From Antrihabitans stalagmiti (GTDB taxonomy: Bacteria > Actinomycetota > Actinomycetes > Mycobacteriales > Mycobacteriaceae): DNA of 64,000 nt. The stretch is taken from NCBI RefSeq assembly GCF_016482825.1, contig NZ_JAEMNV010000012.1, positions 1 through 64,000 on the forward strand, written 5' to 3'. Position 1 is the first letter of the stretch. Every line of letters starts with the position of its first letter. Positions 1 to 51,315 of this stretch are shown here, piece by piece. The position numbers were made by a program, and so were the translations under genes. Under the pieces are notes generated by a model. It searched no databases. It had not been told where the DNA came from and saw only the letters and a program-made list of their open reading frames with translations.

Positions 1-63
1 CTCGGTCATCTGACGCTCGACCTCACCAAGCGATACCAAGGCAAACTGCACGACGCAGCCTAA
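1..63 (+). CDS. 3' end of an unidentified protein
   Basis: The reading frame is open from base 1 to a TAA at 61-63 and encodes the last 20 residues of a protein cut by the window edge, ending KLHDAA. Too little is visible to assign a family. It reads toward the histidine phosphatase gene, with about 100 bases between them that hold two direct repeats and a half copy of a dispersed palindrome. Confidence 0.5.
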   Translation, partial: LGHLTLDLTKRYQGKLHDAA

Positions 64-74
64 AATGTGTCTCG

Positions 75-113
75 CATGTATCTAGACACATCTGTGCCAC
101 ATGTATCTAGACA
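75..113. repeat. two direct copies of an imperfect operator-like palindrome
   Basis: CATGTATCTAGACA occurs at 75-88 and again at 100-113, a centre spacing of 25 bp. Each copy holds TCTAGA flanked by TGTA/ACA and is nearly self-complementary, as expected for a dimeric repressor site. The sites lie between the partial upstream gene and the histidine phosphatase gene. No regulator is visible nearby, so the binding protein is unknown. Confidence 0.5.
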
Positions 114-125
114 GCACAGAGGTGC

Positions 126-160
126 GGCCCTCCGAAAGGACTCACGAGCCGCTTGCGGCC
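126..160 (+). repeat. half copy (site A) of dispersed modular palindrome
   Basis: Bases 132-148 read CCGAAAGGACTCACGAG, identical to the right arm of the complete elements at 35.5 and 50.6 kb. The arm is preceded by GGCCCT, matching the loop, and followed by a small hairpin GCCGC-tt-GCGGC (148-159). The matching left arm is absent; that position is occupied by the direct repeats. It lies 5 bases before the probable GTG start of the histidine phosphatase. Confidence 0.7.
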
Positions 161-15886: not shown

Positions 15887-15957
15887 GCCGCGCCGCGGCT
15901 CGTGCGTCCTTTACGAGGGCCCTACCTCCGAAAAGACTCACGAGCGGCGGAGCCGCC
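15887..15957 (-). repeat. complete dispersed modular palindrome (site B)
   Basis: Small hairpin GCCGC-gcc-GCGGC (15887-15899), left arm beginning CTCGTGCGTCCTTT, a loop, right arm CCGAAAAGACTCACGAG (15928-15944), then small hairpin GCGGC-gga-GCCGC (15944-15956). The loop holds AGGGC as in the other copies, but this copy is more diverged, with a substituted left arm. It fills the gap between the gltD stop and the start of the next gene on the same strand. Confidence 0.75.
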
Positions 15958-15958
15958 T

Positions 15959-17425
15959 CTACCGCTGTGGAGCTGCGGTCGGGAGGATCGGCGACGGCAG
16001 AGCCGTCTCGCCGCACAGGAACTTGTCGACCGCTGCCGCGCACGCGCGACCTTCGGCGATAGCCCAGACGATCAACGACTGGCCACGTCCCATGTCGCCG
16101 GCAACGAAGACGCCGTCGACGGTGGTCGCCCACTCCTTGGTTCGCGCCACGTTGCCACGGTCGGTGTACTCGACACCGAGGCCGTCGAGCAGCCCCGGCT
16201 TCTCGGGACCGACGAAGCCCATCGCAAGCAGGACCAGATCGGCTTCGAGTGTGAAATCGGAGCCTTCGACCTTCTCGAAACGACCCGAGACCATCTTGAC
16301 CTCGTGCGCCTGCAGGCCCGTGACCTTGCCGTTCTCGCCGACGAACTGCTCGGTGTTGACGGAGAACACCCGCTCGCCGCCCTCTTCGTGTGCCGAGGAC
16401 ACCCGGTACATGAGGGGGTAGGTCGGCCACGGCGTCTGGTCGGCACGCTCTTCCGGCGGGCGCGGCATGATCTCGAACTGATGCACGCTCGCAGCACCCT
16501 GACGGTGCGACGTTCCGAGGCAGTCGGCACCGGTGTCGCCGCCGCCGATGATGACGACCTTCTTGCCGCGCGCATGCAGTGGCGGCAGACCGTCTTCGTC
16601 GGTGACGTCGTCGCCGAGCTGAACACGATTGGCCCACGGCAGGAATTCCATCGCCTGATGGATGCCGTCGAGATCACGGCCGGGGATCGGCAGATCACGT
16701 GCGGCGGTCGCGCCACCAGCGAGGACAACCGCGTCGAACTGCGTCTGCAGGTCGGCTGCGGTGATGTCGACACCAACGTCGACGCCTGCCTTGAAGATGG
16801 TGCCCTCGGCTTCCATCTGGGCTAGGCGGCGATCGATGTGGCGCTTCTCCATCTTGAACTCGGGGATGCCGTAGCGCAGCAGACCACCGATGCGGTCGGC
16901 CCGCTCGAACACCGTCACCGTGTGTCCGGCACGCGTAAGCTGCTGTGCCGCAGCAAGTCCCGCAGGACCGGACCCGACGACCGCGATCTTCTTACCGGTC
17001 AGTCGTGTCGGGTAGACGGGCTGGACCCAACCCTCGTCGAAGGCGCGATCGATGATCTCGACCTCGACCTGCTTGATGGTGACCGGATCCTGGTTGATAC
17101 CGAGAACGCAGGACGACTCGCACGGCGCCGGACACAACCGACCCGTGAACTCCGGGAAGTTGTTGGTTGCGTGCAAGCGGTCGATCGATTCGCGCCACCG
17201 GTCCTTGAAGACAAGGTCGTTCCACTCGGGAATGAGGTTTCCGAGCGGGCAACCGTTGTGGCAGAACGGAATACCGCAGTCCATGCAGCGGCTCGCCTGC
17301 GTGCGCAGGGTGTCGGTGGAGAAGTCTTCGTAGACTTCCTTCCAGTCCAAGAGCCGCAGTTCGACAGGCCGACGAACGGGTGTCTCACGGACGGTGTGCT
17401 TCAAAAATCCGCTGGGATCACCCAC
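15959..17425 (-). CDS. gltD: glutamate synthase small subunit
   Basis: A 488-residue subunit of NADPH-dependent glutamate synthase, which passes electrons from NADPH through FAD and iron-sulfur clusters to the large subunit. The N-terminal cysteine clusters are [17 protein letters not shown] and CPAPCESSC. The FAD-binding loop is [13 protein letters not shown] and the NADPH loop [11 protein letters not shown]; the C-terminal [20 protein letters not shown] completes the fold. Its start overlaps the end of gltB by eight bases, so the two are translationally coupled. Length is normal for the family. Confidence 0.97.
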
Positions 17426-34880: not shown

Positions 34881-35498
34881 ATGAACTTGGGTACAACACA
34901 CGTCCTCAAACGTGAACTGGTCGATGTGCCCGCCGCTGTACGTGCTGCACCGGCACCGTGCGTGCCCACCTTCGCGGACCCATTCGCCCTTCGACTCGTC
35001 GACCCCGATACCGACGATCCCGAGCTGATCGCGTCCTGGATGTCGCGCCCGCATCTGGCGGAAACTTGGGAACAGCCCTGGTCGGCAGCGCAGTATCGCG
35101 TCGACAGCCAGGCGCGGTTGGCCGGAACCTACTCTCGCCCATGCATTCTCAGCTACGACGGCAACGAGATCGCGTACGTGGAGTTGTACCGCGCGGCAAA
35201 GGACGAATGCGGTGCCATCTACGACTCCGACCCGTGGGACATGGGTTTCCACATCGCGACCGCAGACACGACGTTACTCGGCAAAGGCATCGTGAGCGAG
35301 TGGATGGCCGTTCTCGCAGAACGGATCTGGGAGCTGGAACCCCTGTGCACCCGCATCGTCGTCGACCCCGACTACCGCAATACGCCCATGCGCAAGGCAC
35401 TGGCCAAGCGTGGCTACGAGGATCTGGGCGAGTTCGATGTCCGCCCCGACCGCCGAATTGCGCTCTTCGCAAAATCGAGGCCGCTCCGCGGCTCGTGA
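34881..35498 (+). CDS. siderophore-type GNAT acyltransferase (MbtK/IucB-like)
   Basis: A 205-residue GNAT protein of the branch used to acylate hydroxylysine or lysine in hydroxamate siderophores (MbtK, IucB, RhbD). The family traits are ETWEQPWSA, IAYVELYRAAKDE, MGFHIATAD and VVDPDYRNTPMRKALAKRGY, where acetyl- or acyl-CoA binds. The iron box in front fits this job. No siderophore synthetase is in the window, so it acts with enzymes encoded elsewhere or is an orphan. Its TGA stop lies inside the palindromic repeat that separates it from the convergent molybdoprotein gene. Confidence 0.8.
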   Translation: MNLGTTHVLKRELVDVPAAVRAAPAPCVPTFADPFALRLVDPDTDDPELIASWMSRPHLAETWEQPWSAAQYRVDSQARLAGTYSRPCILSYDGNEIAYVELYRAAKDECGAIYDSDPWDMGFHIATADTTLLGKGIVSEWMAVLAERIWELEPLCTRIVVDPDYRNTPMRKALAKRGYEDLGEFDVRPDRRIALFAKSRPLRGS

Positions 35499-35549
35499 GT
35501 CTTTTCGGTGGTTCCGCCCTCCGAAAGGACTCACGAGCGGCGTAGCCGC
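35480..35549. repeat. complete dispersed modular palindrome (site C)
   Basis: Small hairpin GCCGC-tcc-GCGGC (35480-35492), left arm CTCGTGAGTCTTTTCGG (35492-35508), loop TGGTTCCGCCCT, right arm CCGAAAGGACTCACGAG (35521-35537), small hairpin GCGGC-gta-GCCGC (35537-35549). The arms pair at 16 of 17 positions. It fills the whole gap between two convergent genes: the GNAT stop is inside it and the molybdoprotein stop follows at once. A bidirectional terminator is the simplest role. Confidence 0.85.
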
Positions 35550-37133
35550 CTAGGCCCTGACGATGATCGTCCGGTTGTGCCAGCCGGTCGACCCACCGGG
35601 AATCGGCGGCGTCCGCTCTTCGGTCTGCGTATTGCCGTCGAGGTCGGTCGCACGAACCTCGATCACGTGGTTGCCGGCGGTCGCATCCCATTCATAGGTC
35701 CATTGGCGCCACGTGTCGATCGAGTACTCCGGCGCGAGAACTGCCTGCTGCCACTCCTGCTTGTCCACCCGGATCTCGACCTTCTCGATACCGCGGCGCT
35801 GGGCCCATGCCGTTCCCGCGACAACCACCCGACCGGCAGGGACGGGCGCGAGCGCGGCAGGGACGTCGATCCGAGACGCCGTCTTGATCGGCGCCTGCGC
35901 ACCCCAACCTCGTTTCGTCCAGTACGCCTCGGCCTTGTCGAAGCGAGTCAACTCCCAGTCGACAACCCATTTCGTCGCCGACACGAAGCCGTACAGCCCG
36001 GGAACGACCTGGCGGACGGGGTAACCGTGCTCGAGGGGCAGCGGTTCTCCGTTCATCGAGACGGCAAGAATCGCGTCGCGGCCGTCGCGCAGTGCTGCAA
36101 CGGGAGTTCCACTGGTCCACCCGTCGACACTGGTGGAGAGCAGCATGTCGGCCTCGGGGTCGACACCTGCCTCGTCCAGCAGATCCTTGATCGCATAACC
36201 GATCCAGGTCGCGTTGCCCGCGAGCGGACCGCCGACCTCGTTGGACACGCAGGTCAACGTGATCGTGCGCTCCATCGCGGTGCGAGCGACAAGATCGTCC
36301 CAGTTCAACGTGATCTCGCGGTCGACCATGCCGTGAATGCGCAGCTGCCAGTCGTCGCGGACCAGCTTGGGGACCTGCAATGCCGTGTCGATTCGATAAA
36401 ACGTCTCGTTCGGGGTGAGGAAGGTCGTCGACCCGGGAACGTTGATATCGGTGCCCGCAGCGATCGGCTTTGCCTTGTCTTTCACCGACGGCAGCCGGAA
36501 ATTGGCGCGGTCCGCGACGACGTCGGTCAGTCGTGCGCCGATGTAGCGCCCAGCGACACCGATTGCGACAGCAGCCGCCGCGATGCCGGTGCCGAGGACC
36601 AGGAACTTCCGGCGCGGCAGGCGGGACTCCGAAACCGGTTTCGAATCCGGGTCTTTCGGCGCAACCTGGGCAAGGGCGCCGATGAGGAGTCGGAGCACGA
36701 GTATTCCGAATACGACGCCGACGATGCTCGGGATCGCGAACGTCCAGTCCGACGTGATGCGTTGTTGCGACGCGTAGACGGCGACGAGTCCGAGCACGAT
36801 CAACGCGACGCTGCCCAGCGGACGACGAGGTCGTTCGATCAGTCCGATCAACGCACCGATCAGCACCATCGCAATCGACATCCCGATGAACAGCGCGGGC
36901 TTGTCGTTGGTTCCGAAGGTCTCGATCGCGAATTCGCGCGCGAACTCCGGCGCCCGATCGACCGTCACGTTGCCGACTGCGAAGAACGGTGAACTGTTCG
37001 GATCGATGGGGACCGCCGCTAGTTCGCCGACCCCGAGCACGACGCCGGCTGCGATGATTCCCGAGAGCCCCCGGGCAACGATTCGTCGCCGTGGGCGGGT
37101 CTCTTCGACCTCTGGTGGCGCTTGCGTCGTCAT
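35550..37133 (-). CDS. membrane-anchored molybdopterin oxidoreductase (Rv0218-like)
   Basis: A 527-residue protein with four to five membrane helices in the first 190 residues (GLSGIIAAGVVLGVGELAA, LFIGMSIAMVLIGALIGLI, SVALIVLGLVAVYAS, AIPSIVGVVFGILVLRLLIG and one near 180-200) and then a sulfite-oxidase-fold molybdopterin domain. The molybdenum-binding cysteine lies in TLTCVSNEVGG and the C-terminal part is the immunoglobulin-like dimerisation domain. It matches the layout of M. tuberculosis Rv0218. The enzyme domain would face the cell exterior. It is divergent from a fasciclin lipoprotein gene, a pairing that suggests a shared envelope role. Confidence 0.88.
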   Translation of the reverse strand: MTTQAPPEVEETRPRRRIVARGLSGIIAAGVVLGVGELAAVPIDPNSSPFFAVGNVTVDRAPEFAREFAIETFGTNDKPALFIGMSIAMVLIGALIGLIERPRRPLGSVALIVLGLVAVYASQQRITSDWTFAIPSIVGVVFGILVLRLLIGALAQVAPKDPDSKPVSESRLPRRKFLVLGTGIAAAAVAIGVAGRYIGARLTDVVADRANFRLPSVKDKAKPIAAGTDINVPGSTTFLTPNETFYRIDTALQVPKLVRDDWQLRIHGMVDREITLNWDDLVARTAMERTITLTCVSNEVGGPLAGNATWIGYAIKDLLDEAGVDPEADMLLSTSVDGWTSGTPVAALRDGRDAILAVSMNGEPLPLEHGYPVRQVVPGLYGFVSATKWVVDWELTRFDKAEAYWTKRGWGAQAPIKTASRIDVPAALAPVPAGRVVVAGTAWAQRRGIEKVEIRVDKQEWQQAVLAPEYSIDTWRQWTYEWDATAGNHVIEVRATDLDGNTQTEERTPPIPGGSTGWHNRTIIVRA

Positions 37134-40603: not shown

Positions 40604-40686
40604 TGGGCGAAGGGGGACTTGAACCCCCACGTCCCGAAGGACACTGGCACCTGAAGCCAGCGCGTCTGCCATTCCGCCACTCGCCC
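40604..40686 (-). tRNA. tRNA-Leu (CAG)
   Basis: The 83-base RNA folds as a class II tRNA: acceptor GGGCGAG with TTCGCCC, D-arm region GGCGGAATGGCAGACGC, anticodon stem CTGGC/GCCAG with loop TTCAGGT (anticodon CAG), a long variable arm TGTCCTTCGGGACG, and T-arm GGGGGTTCAAGTCCCCC. CCA is not encoded. Its place next to fhaA matches leuT in M. tuberculosis. Confidence 0.96.
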
Positions 40687-48690: not shown

Positions 48691-50618
48691 CCACGACACC
48701 GCGCAAGCTCTCGTCGCGCTACGAGCTTGGCGAGATCCTCGGTTTCGGTGGCATGTCCGAAGTCCACATGGCGCGTGATCTGCGGCTGAGTCGGGACGTT
48801 GCGATCAAGGTGCTGCGCGCCGATCTGGCCCGCGACCCGACGTTCTACCTCCGCTTCCGGCGCGAGGCCCAGAATGCGGCGGCACTGAACCACCCCGCGA
48901 TCGTCGCGGTCTACGACACCGGCGAAGCGGAGACCGACGCCGGACCGCTGCCGTTCATCGTGATGGAGTACGTCGAGGGCGACACGCTGCGCGACATCGT
49001 CCGCAACGAAGGGCCCATGGCGCCGCGCCGCGCGATGGAAATCATCGCCGACGTCTGCGCTGCGCTGGATTTCAGCCACCGCAACGGCATCGTGCACCGC
49101 GACATGAAGCCCGCCAACATCATGCTCAACCGCGCCGGAGCGGTGAAGGTGATGGACTTCGGCATCGCTCGTGCGATCGCCGACAGCTCCAGCCCGATGA
49201 CGCAGACCGCTGCAGTCATCGGAACAGCGCAGTATCTTTCGCCGGAACAAGCTCGCGGCGAACAGGTCGACGCCCGGTCCGACGTCTACTCTGTTGGTTG
49301 CGTGCTGTTCGAAATCCTGACTGCCGAACCACCTTTCAAAGGTGATTCACCGGTCGCCGTCGCGTATCAGCACGTGCGCGAGGAGCCTCCGCTGCCGTCG
49401 TCTGTGCACAAGGGCGTTCCGCGCGAGCTCGATTCGGTGATTCTGAAGGCGATGAGCAAGAACCCCGCGAATCGCTATCAGTCCGCGGCCGAGATGCGTA
49501 GCGACCTGATTCGTGTACTCGGGGGGCAACGCCCGAGTGCTCCGACCGTGATGACAGAGGAAGACCGCACGACGATCCTCGGTGCCGTCGATTCCACTGC
49601 CCGCCGGTATCGCACCGAGCCTCCGGTGAAGGCAACTGCCGCAGTCGAGCTCGACGACGACGAAGAGCCGCGGAAGCGTCCGCTGCTCAAGATCGGCGCT
49701 CTGATTGCGGCCGCGATGATCGTCGTCGCAATGTTCACGTGGGTCGGTTTCAAGGGCTTCGACGTTTTCGGGACCGGCAACGACCAGATCGAAGTACCCG
49801 ACGTCACGAACTTGGTGGCGCAGGAAGCCGAGAAGCAGTTGGACGACCTCGGCTTCGAAGTCGACCGGGTCGACGAGTTCAACGACGACGGCGTCGCTGC
49901 CGGCAAGGTGATTGCGACAAGTCCACTCGCTGGTTCGCCGAAGGAAACGGGCTCACTGATCACACTGAAAGTCTCGCGTGGACCCGAGTTGATCGCTGTG
50001 CCGCGGTTGTCGGGTCTCTCGCAGGACCAGGCGACACAGGCCCTCAACGCAGCGCGGCTCCGACTGGACCCAACGGTCGAGCGAGGTCCCTCCAGCGTGG
50101 CCGAAAAGGGCAAGGTCATCGAGCAGAAGCCGTCCGAGGGTTCCAGCATCAAGATCGATTCGCTGGTCAAGATCACCATCGGTGACGGTCCGGAGTCGGT
50201 CCGCATACCGACCGTCGTCGGCACGAACATCGACGCAGCGCGACCCAACCTCGAAGGCGCGGGGTTCGTCGTCGAGGTCGAGGAGGTCGCGTCCGCCGAG
50301 CCGAAGGGTGAGGTCATCTCGACGAACCCGACGGGCGGTGGCACTGCGGAGAAGGGTTCGACGGTCCGGGTCCAGGTGTCCCAAGGTGACGAGATTCCGA
50401 TGCCGAATCTCACCAACCAGACGGTGCCCGAGGCGATCAGCACGCTGCGCACGGCTGGCTGGATCGGTGCTGCCGAACAGCTCATCCAGACCGCTGAGCC
50501 GGTGCTCGATCAGCCGCGACTCGGTCGCGTCGTGACCCAATCGCCTGCACCGGGTGCGCCGATAGCCAAGAACGGCACCGTGACCATAGGCGTTGGGACA
50601 GTAGGAATTCCGAGGTAG
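48687..50618 (+). CDS. pknB: Ser/Thr protein kinase PknB with PASTA domains
   Basis: A 643-residue essential-type kinase that senses peptidoglycan fragments. The kinase domain (about 11-275) has Lys41, HRDMKPAN (Asp139), DFG (Asp157) and the activation-loop threonines in [15 protein letters not shown] membrane helix ([18 protein letters not shown]) lies near residue 340. Four PASTA domains follow: [40 protein letters not shown] and [12 protein letters not shown]. The gene ends one base before a palindromic element that separates it from the convergent trpG-like gene. Confidence 0.98.
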
Positions 50619-50686
50619 GGCCTCCGGCCTCGTGAGTCCTTTTGGAGGGCGGGACCACCGAAAGGACTCACGAGGCGCGAAGCGCC
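50619..50686. repeat. complete dispersed modular palindrome (site D)
   Basis: Small hairpin GGCC-tcc-GGCC (50619-50629), left arm CTCGTGAGTCCTTTTGG (50629-50645), loop AGGGCGGGACCA, right arm CCGAAAGGACTCACGAG (50658-50674), small hairpin GGCGC-gaa-GCGCC (50674-50686). Its loop is the reverse complement of the loop in site C with one change, so it is the same element inserted the other way round. It sits tail to tail between pknB and the trpG-like gene, whose TGA stop lies inside it. Confidence 0.85.
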
Positions 50687-51315
50687 CTCTCGACTTCGTC
50701 TTCGAGTTGGCTGACCAGTGACTCCGCTGGTCGGTCGCCGCACACCTCGAGCCAGTTCGCCAACATCCGGTGCCCACCCTGCGTCAGGACCGACTCGGGA
50801 TGGAACTGAACACCGTGGATCGGTAGCTCCCGATGCCGCATCGCCATGACCACGCCGCTGTCGGTTCGTGCTGTCACCTCGAGCACCTCGGGAATCGTCT
50901 CTTCGAGGACGGTCAGCGAGTGATAGCGAGTCGCGGTGAACGGATCCGGCAGACCGGCCAGGACGCCGACACCGGAGTGATGGACGACGCTTGTCTTACC
51001 GTGCAGCAACTCGGGTGCGCGGTCGACGGTTCCACCGAACGCCGCACCGATCGCCTGGTGTCCGAGACATACACCGAGCAACGGCGTCGCCGTCTTCGCA
51101 CTCGCCGTCACCAATCCCATCGTCGCACCCGCCCGCTGCGGTGTGCCCGGACCGGGGCTCAGCAGGATCCCGTCGAAAGCGGCCGCAACGGCGTCGAGGT
51201 CGGCGAGGTTCGGATCGTCGTTTCGCCACACAACAGCATCGGTGCCGAGCTGGCCCAGGTACTGCACCAGGTTGAACACGAAGCTGTCGTAGTTGTCGAC
51301 GACCAAGATGCGCAT
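50668..51315 (-). CDS. trpG: class I glutamine amidotransferase (anthranilate / aminodeoxychorismate synthase component II)
   Basis: A 215-residue amidotransferase that supplies ammonia from glutamine to chorismate-using synthases. The triad is Cys83 in GVCLGHQ, His172 and Glu174 in VQFHPES; LSPGPGTP is the family loop. It is the homologue of Rv0013, named trpG though it may serve folate (PabA) rather than tryptophan synthesis. No partner synthase is in the window. Its last codons fall in the palindromic element shared with the end of pknB. Confidence 0.93.
   Translation of the reverse strand: MRILVVDNYDSFVFNLVQYLGQLGTDAVVWRNDDPNLADLDAVAAAFDGILLSPGPGTPQRAGATMGLVTASAKTATPLLGVCLGHQAIGAAFGGTVDRAPELLHGKTSVVHHSGVGVLAGLPDPFTATRYHSLTVLEETIPEVLEVTARTDSGVVMAMRHRELPIHGVQFHPESVLTQGGHRMLANWLEVCGDRPAESLVSQLEDEVERALRAS

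Follow-up and report, generated by a model that had tools for sequence, protein, structure and literature searches.

A dispersed, probably mobile palindrome at gene ends of Antrihabitans stalagmiti, with an apparently IS481-like insertion sequence entering at its centre

The window, that is, the whole 64,000-nucleotide stretch of DNA analysed here, is contig C4:1-64000 of the A. stalagmiti genome (G000; 6,393,340 bases in 44 contigs). It holds four sites of one palindrome, A to D, together with the 3' end of an insertion sequence (IS).

1..118, plus strand: 3' end of an apparently IS481-like IS, with the end of the transposase frame (stop 61-63) and the terminus ..CAGCACA at 118
119..132, unstranded: 14-bp IS target duplication at site A, made of the palindrome's loop and one base on each side; identical at the 5' junction of contig C34
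132..162, unstranded: site A, a full palindrome of which the window keeps the right half, with its arm at 132-148, small hairpin at 148-159 and edge CTA at 160-162
15887..15957, unstranded: site B, diverged full copy with hairpins GCCGC-GCC-GCGGC and GCGGC-GGA-GCCGC
35478..35552, unstranded: site C, full copy between convergent genes (edges AG 35478-35479 and CTA 35550-35552)
50616..50688, unstranded: site D, full copy between convergent genes for a kinase (PASTA) and a glutamine amidotransferase

A first-pass annotation of the window had proposed these four sites, and all of them are found where it placed them, although the unit edges, (T)AG and CT(A), fall just outside its coordinates. Sites C and D share an arm and, in opposite orientation, a 12-nt loop (matching at 11 of 12 positions), as it described, and site B, which it called a diverged copy, is a full, diverged palindrome. 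Site A was misread as a half copy; there the IS in window 1-118 has cut a full copy in two, leaving the right half in the window and the left half at the start of contig C34, each with the same 14 bp. The sites adjoin the ends of genes. Beside site B, the minus-strand gene 15959-17425 has its stop at 15959-15961. At site C, the minus-strand gene takes its stop from the edge CTA (35550-35552), and the plus-strand gene stops at a TGA in the left arm (35496-35498). At site D, the edge TAG (50616-50618) is the stop kept by the kinase gene, while the amidotransferase frame crosses the right hairpin and stops at a TGA in the right arm. At the corresponding place the site B unit is missing in three congeners and the site D unit in two. 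Rfam returned 12 matches at site C, all far below the gathering score; the only match in the window at gathering score is a tRNA gene at 40604-40686 on the minus strand.

The arm CCGAAAGGACTCACGAG has seven matches in the window at up to 3 mismatches, against a mean of 0.36 and a maximum of 3 in 100 shuffles, and the fold z-scores of the sites are -7.30 (C), -7.41 (D), -3.68 (B) and 0.00 (A). Across the whole A. stalagmiti genome the arm gives 196 + 201 matches at up to 2 mismatches (reversed control 0). The expectation that many copies would exist was borne out, with 197 full palindromes, or 199 when the inner part is allowed to be looser. A. stalactiti (strain YC2-7; G001) carries 177-200 copies, and a whole-genome scan of two other Antrihabitans congeners (G002 and G003) found none. 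A contig search using A. stalagmiti's own loop type gave no matches; a looser one gave at least 68 loci, among the matches listed all from A. stalactiti. Viral contigs contained no exact match to the palindrome.

For the anatomy of the unit we extracted 105 A. stalagmiti copies, 3 from the window and the others from 85 stretches of the genome; these stretches were chosen around known arm matches, and badly decayed copies are consequently under-represented. The unit, about 76 bp in this genome, reads (T)AG, small GC hairpin, arm of 16-17 bp, loop, arm, small hairpin, CT(A), with a 12-nt loop of the form NGG-N6-CCN. In its general form, derived by comparing the loci of the IS homologues described below, the palindrome is a 42-bp frame, CGTGAGTNNTT-N20-AANNACTCACG, in which NN and N20 vary between and within genera. 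Local stems of at least 4 bp are present at 178 of 210 A. stalagmiti ends, compared with 429 of 2,100 shuffled ends, so that the unit is built as a doublet of two REPs in inverted orientation, each ending in a hairpin. The A. stalactiti unit is shorter: conservation fades about 8-10 nt beyond the 42-mer and the hairpins are absent (94 copies), with a local stem of at least 4 bp at 1 of 66 ends.

The small hairpins change in sequence and stay paired, as had been claimed, and compensation is visible at two of their pairs. In fixed register, pair 2-12 is Watson-Crick in 165 of 210 ends (shuffled mean 94.2, largest 114) and pair 3-11 in 159 of 210 (shuffled mean 90.7, largest 114), figures that count copies; because each newly copied unit inherits its stems, they do not count independent events. 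Pairs 1-13, 4-10 and 5-9 lie within the shuffled ranges because their columns scarcely vary. The broader claim that the structure is kept by compensating changes therefore holds for the small hairpins and not for the central arms, where A. stalagmiti shows no clear compensation: arm pair 11/36 is C-G in 40, T-A in 25, C-A in 24 and T-G in 15 of 104 copies, which makes 65 of 104 Watson-Crick against a shuffled mean of 52.6 and a largest value of 67. In A. stalactiti, covariation is seen at one central pair, 15/32 (24 of 33 paired; shuffled mean 13.1, largest 21). The two ends of a unit are seldom alike. Exactly one GCGGC end is found in 71 of 105 units, none in 32 and two in 2, and equal hairpins at both ends occur in 2 of 42 units with 5-bp stems (15.6 expected) and in 2 of 73 with stems of at least 4 bp (16.7 expected). 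We read this pattern as polarity from the founder in preference to selection acting against perfect palindromes. Where contexts are mixed, the GCGGC end points toward the gene stop in 20 of 30 cases.

Genes were called with a purpose-written, simple codon-usage gene finder. By these calls the palindrome is extragenic as well as high in copy number: none of the 105 copies lies inside a predicted gene, and 52 occupy tandem, 46 convergent and 5 divergent junctions, with 2 at stretch edges. Within the same stretches, convergent junctions account for 45 of 101 with an element and 41 of 322 without (p = 7e-11), and divergent junctions, which are depleted, for 5 of 101 and 85 of 322 (p = 6e-7). The proposed location at gene ends is thereby confirmed, and neither of the outcomes that the annotation had named as refuting its reading, a lack of further copies or copies never found at gene ends, was encountered.

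In fact, the unit often contains the stop codon itself. The gene stop falls exactly on the edge TAG in 59 of 145 stop-facing ends and on the arm TGA in 30 of 145, and the edge TAG occurs in 63 of 145 stop-facing as against 11 of 63 start-facing ends. Relatives' genes stop at TAG in 28 of 59 cases at element-TAG ends, in 16 of 32 cases for genes without element that use TAG themselves (p = 0.83 against the element-TAG ends) and in 9 of 51 for genes without element that use TGA (p = 0.001 against the same ends). It seems that the stop before insertion was mostly TAG already. Several element-bearing genes stop a few residues before or after the stops of their relatives.

The edges of the unit are sharp. 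Among 70 copies orientated by their GCGGC end, 83 pairs are near-identical (at most 5 differences in 70 nt), and their identity drops to background directly beyond the unit edges: 0.93, 0.81, 0.51 and 0.22 at positions -1 to -4 of the left flank, and 0.96, 0.81, 0.52 and 0.23 at +1 to +4 of the right flank. This profile indicates that AG and CT travel with the unit and the outer T and A only partly. Flanking target duplication, as expected of a DDE MITE, was not found around the palindrome beyond the level of mispaired controls in 105 A. stalagmiti and 33 A. stalactiti copies, bar one exception in the latter. In the A. stalactiti copy L154 5738-5783, a 16-bp direct repeat, GCGTCGATGATGGTGC, stands at the flanks, the sole long one among 138 copies; it reflects either chance or a rare duplicating event.

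At the sites tested, positions are not shared with relatives. None of 72 corresponding gene ends in the three congeners (for 26 copies and 37 gene ends) carries the core or the general 42-mer at up to 3 mismatches between -60 and +120 of the stop, in a non-random sample of copies mostly chosen for an edge TAG, in which 6 of the 72 matches have less than 65% identity, some being probably paralogues (L122, window 35492), and in a comparison made between species, the relatives being other Antrihabitans species and not strains. The exact edges of near-identical pairs and these unshared positions back the mobility that the first-pass annotation had suggested.

The frame extends beyond the genus. 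Within the family sample, 31 of 401 genomes, from 6 of 31 genera, have it at up to 1 mismatch, while the class sample outside the family has it in 1 of 358 genomes, that one without inner symmetry. Nine large genomes of genus g39 carry 52-108 copies each, and six genomes of genus g21, scanned with a tuned pattern, carry 10, 13, 15, 47, 0 and 2. Five plasmid records match the g39 subtype, all from Rhodococcus and three with 85.7% identity along all 42 bases; by sequence, g39 is probably Rhodococcus. The primer HISalkU_R, at the 3' end of R. jostii RHA1 alkU, contains AAGTACTCACG in the primer table of PMC6921075, where it goes unremarked, so that alkU may end in the Rhodococcus subtype of the palindrome; that paper, with the arm inside a primer, is the only Rhodococcus paper among the matches listed for six 11-mers. 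TAG and hairpins of the GCGGC/GGCGC type recur at many, not all, copies seen in other genera. The design is therefore common to genera, and it was probably lost in A. stalactiti.

The IS that splits site A has its 3' end at 8 contig ends of A. stalagmiti and 7 of A. stalactiti, and at none in the other two congeners. All 21 IS junctions found border palindrome halves, and they do so at the centre (3' ends 8 + 7, 5' ends 5 + 1), in a count that leaves out four chance matches to a loose motif and one internal IS repeat. A 14-bp duplication, the 12-nt loop plus one base on each side, is present in 5 of 5 pairable A. stalagmiti copies, each 5' end pairing with one 3' end. Since the 14 bp of site A are identical to those at the C34 junction, site A and the start of contig C34 belong together. 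The A. stalagmiti assembly breaks at IS copies (window 1-120; both ends of C3; ends of C5, C12, C23, C42 and C44), and the duplications consequently show which contigs are neighbours, as with the starts of C4 and C34.

Elements of the IS481 family duplicate up to about 15 bp of target and have TGT..ACA ends; the 14 bp in 5 of 5 pairs and the TGT..ACA termini agree with this description. The visible last 96 aa of the IS itself, searched against Pfam, NCBIfam and plasmids, gave nothing useful. Five loci in 4 other genomes of 401 hold full-length homologues of this end. At three of these (L363, L364 and L366) the IS stands at the centre of the 42-bp palindrome with a 14-bp duplication, as read from the printed flanks, and a fourth (L362) is cut by a contig end, its centre alone resembling the palindrome. 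The fifth (L365), in a genome with no palindromes (G206), has the 14-bp duplication and no recognisable palindrome around it, which indicates that the lineage can land outside the palindrome too. Two distant homologues match rve; with the IS481 model (NF033577) the same two score 208 and 200.6 bits against a curated cut-off of 224, the best of four families. By these homologues the inserted IS looks IS481-like. A tyrosine recombinase using the dyad as core site had also been considered, from the C-terminus in window 1-63; it was rejected on the 14-bp duplication and the full-length homologues, which suggest an rve/IS481-like transposase.

Taken together, the feature is probably a non-autonomous mobile palindrome, REPIN- or MITE-like, whose centre serves as a landing place for the IS481-like element. 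We note several points on the other side: no mobiliser is seen, including the Y1 domain discussed below; a few gene-end features, such as some T-runs, fit a host function too; and the tested sites were mostly picked for an edge TAG and compared with other species.

An unlikely alternative is that the unit works as a bidirectional terminator or stabilises RNA 3' ends, and has spread chiefly because the host selects it for that use. As RNA the unit folds into a very stable 3' hairpin, and the enrichment at convergent and depletion at divergent junctions would suit such a role. TTTT is found within 14 nt past the hairpin at 10 of 128 ends and further out at 1 of 128, with T fractions of 0.239 and 0.191, respectively. 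These runs are enriched but rare, 118 of 128 ends having none within 14 nt, so that they argue weakly for a classical terminator, and for a few copies. The unit may also act in U-less or factor-dependent termination, or in mRNA protection. Moreover, the positions are unshared with relatives at the tested sites and the element is missing from two congeners. Of the bidirectional terminator suggested by the first-pass annotation, the position thus fits and the T-runs fit only rarely.

We think it distinctly improbable that the palindrome is the dispersed 42-bp binding dyad of a chromosomal protein of nucleoid or segregation type. The 11+20+11 geometry is fixed across genera with CGTGAGTNNTT conserved, and the central arms are conserved in sequence without compensation in A. 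stalagmiti, both of which would agree with a protein-binding site. However, the location at gene ends and the exact edges of near-identical units suggest copying, and the inner 20 bp vary from genus to genus.

Much the same low probability attaches to a REPIN of the classical kind, mobilised by a RAYT (Y1 HUH transposase) that has been lost, is masked in the assembly or is too diverged. The REP-like size, the inverted doublet, the AG/TAG edge, end hairpins preserved by compensating changes, the lack of target duplication and the location at gene ends all speak for it. PMC2817692 reports PF01797 (Y1_Tnp) in every RAYT homologue retrieved there. The domain is missing in 4 of 4 Antrihabitans genomes, the two richest carriers included, with 5 of 14 controls positive and with some short A. 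stalagmiti contigs masked, where a hidden copy is possible; the RAYT/Y1 transposase for which the first-pass annotation proposed to search was accordingly not recovered. Judged by eye, none of the 26 predicted genes that lie between the partners of 14 close pairs of copies resembles a transposase. The G of GTAG is not favoured: 82 NTAG ends have G before TAG in 30, C in 23, A in 21 and T in 8 cases. A terminal GTAG/GTGG tag was rejected as a candidate for this reason, and because the preceding base is at background in near-identical pairs; even the outer T of the edge reaches an identity of only 0.51-0.52 between them. Furthermore, what is conserved is the inner arm and not the hairpin beside the tag, and A. 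stalactiti units have no end hairpin. The REP-like design envisaged by the annotation therefore stands, while mobilisation by a RAYT is not supported, given the Y1 result and a tag of AG/TAG instead of GTAG.

It is highly improbable that the palindrome arose by deletion from the IS481-like element, as a MITE: the two share the same two of four congeners, but the IS ends, TGT..ACA, differ from the unit ends, no target duplication flanks the palindrome, and the variable loop that the IS duplicates is the palindrome's own, which means that the IS entered pre-existing copies.

On the mobile-palindrome reading, a trans-acting enzyme would copy or move the unit and might recognise its end hairpins in single-stranded DNA, by analogy with IS200/IS605-type transposition. 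In that type a tag lies beside the target and no duplication arises; since the palindrome has both features, a similar mode is perhaps at work. A. stalactiti copies are as numerous without hairpins, which shows that spread in that species does not need them, and this form suggests that the dyad itself is perhaps what the mobilising enzyme needs. Gene ends would be places that tolerate insertion, and an inserted unit would give the adjoining transcripts a stable hairpin in their 3' part, with its edge TAG or arm TGA serving as the stop of the host gene after insertion.

More tentatively, and as a possibility that we hold well below the reading for Antrihabitans, gene-end mobile palindromes with the 42-bp dyad may form a class throughout the Mycobacteriaceae (GTDB), moved by a non-Y1 enzyme, with or without hairpins, inserting at stop codons and entered at the centre by a dedicated IS481-like lineage. 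If so, host genes would owe both their stop and their 3' hairpin to the element, and the dyad centre would be a safe landing site for IS481-like elements in several genera. REP-like repeats of gammaproteobacteria are explained by RAYTs; here a comparably abundant and apparently mobile palindrome occurs in an actinobacterial family, with no detectable Y1 in the genus tested. It lodges at stop codons and so alters how genes end. What else moves REPs thereby becomes testable in culturable hosts (Antrihabitans, Rhodococcus). The IS offers a handle on target choice, because its entry point is constant although loops differ between species.

No earlier description of the palindrome was found in the open-licence literature, and its closest counterparts are as follows. 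The IS resembles the IS481 family (NF033577) in that this is the best family for its full-length homologues and in its TGT..ACA termini, and it differs from the family at large in scoring below the cut-off and in its specificity for one dispersed palindrome. Like the REP-targeting IS of PMC1525189, it has one fixed entry point in a dispersed palindrome, ISRm22 lying at the palindrome axis; its 14-bp duplication is longer than the duplications of 2-6 bp given in the available portion of that paper. This portion names the families IS3, IS110, IS4, IS256 and IS5 and does not mention IS481, so the present partner adds a family to those listed there.

The palindrome itself is REPIN-like by behaviour and, by its tag and the Y1 gene, is not a RAYT-type REPIN. 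REPINs and GTAG REPs with their RAYTs, as presented in the accessible text of PMC3116915, PMC2817692 and PMC3733652, are likewise short inverted palindromic pairs, high in copy number and extragenic, with a gene-end bias, complementary hairpin changes and no flanking duplication. In contrast to GTAG REPs, the edge here is TAG, no Y1 transposase is found in 4 of 4 congeners, and the inner arms are conserved while the end hairpins are variable or wholly absent. The main text of PMC3733652 contains no occurrence of 'actinobacteria' and does not name Actinomycetota, the phylum of the host family here. Its GTAG-23 REPs of T. roseum are similar, as far as that text describes them, in combining a REP with a small GC palindrome. 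In T. roseum it is the small palindromes that contain the inserted REP, whereas the Antrihabitans unit has a single large palindrome with an independent small hairpin on either side, and both hairpins move along with it.
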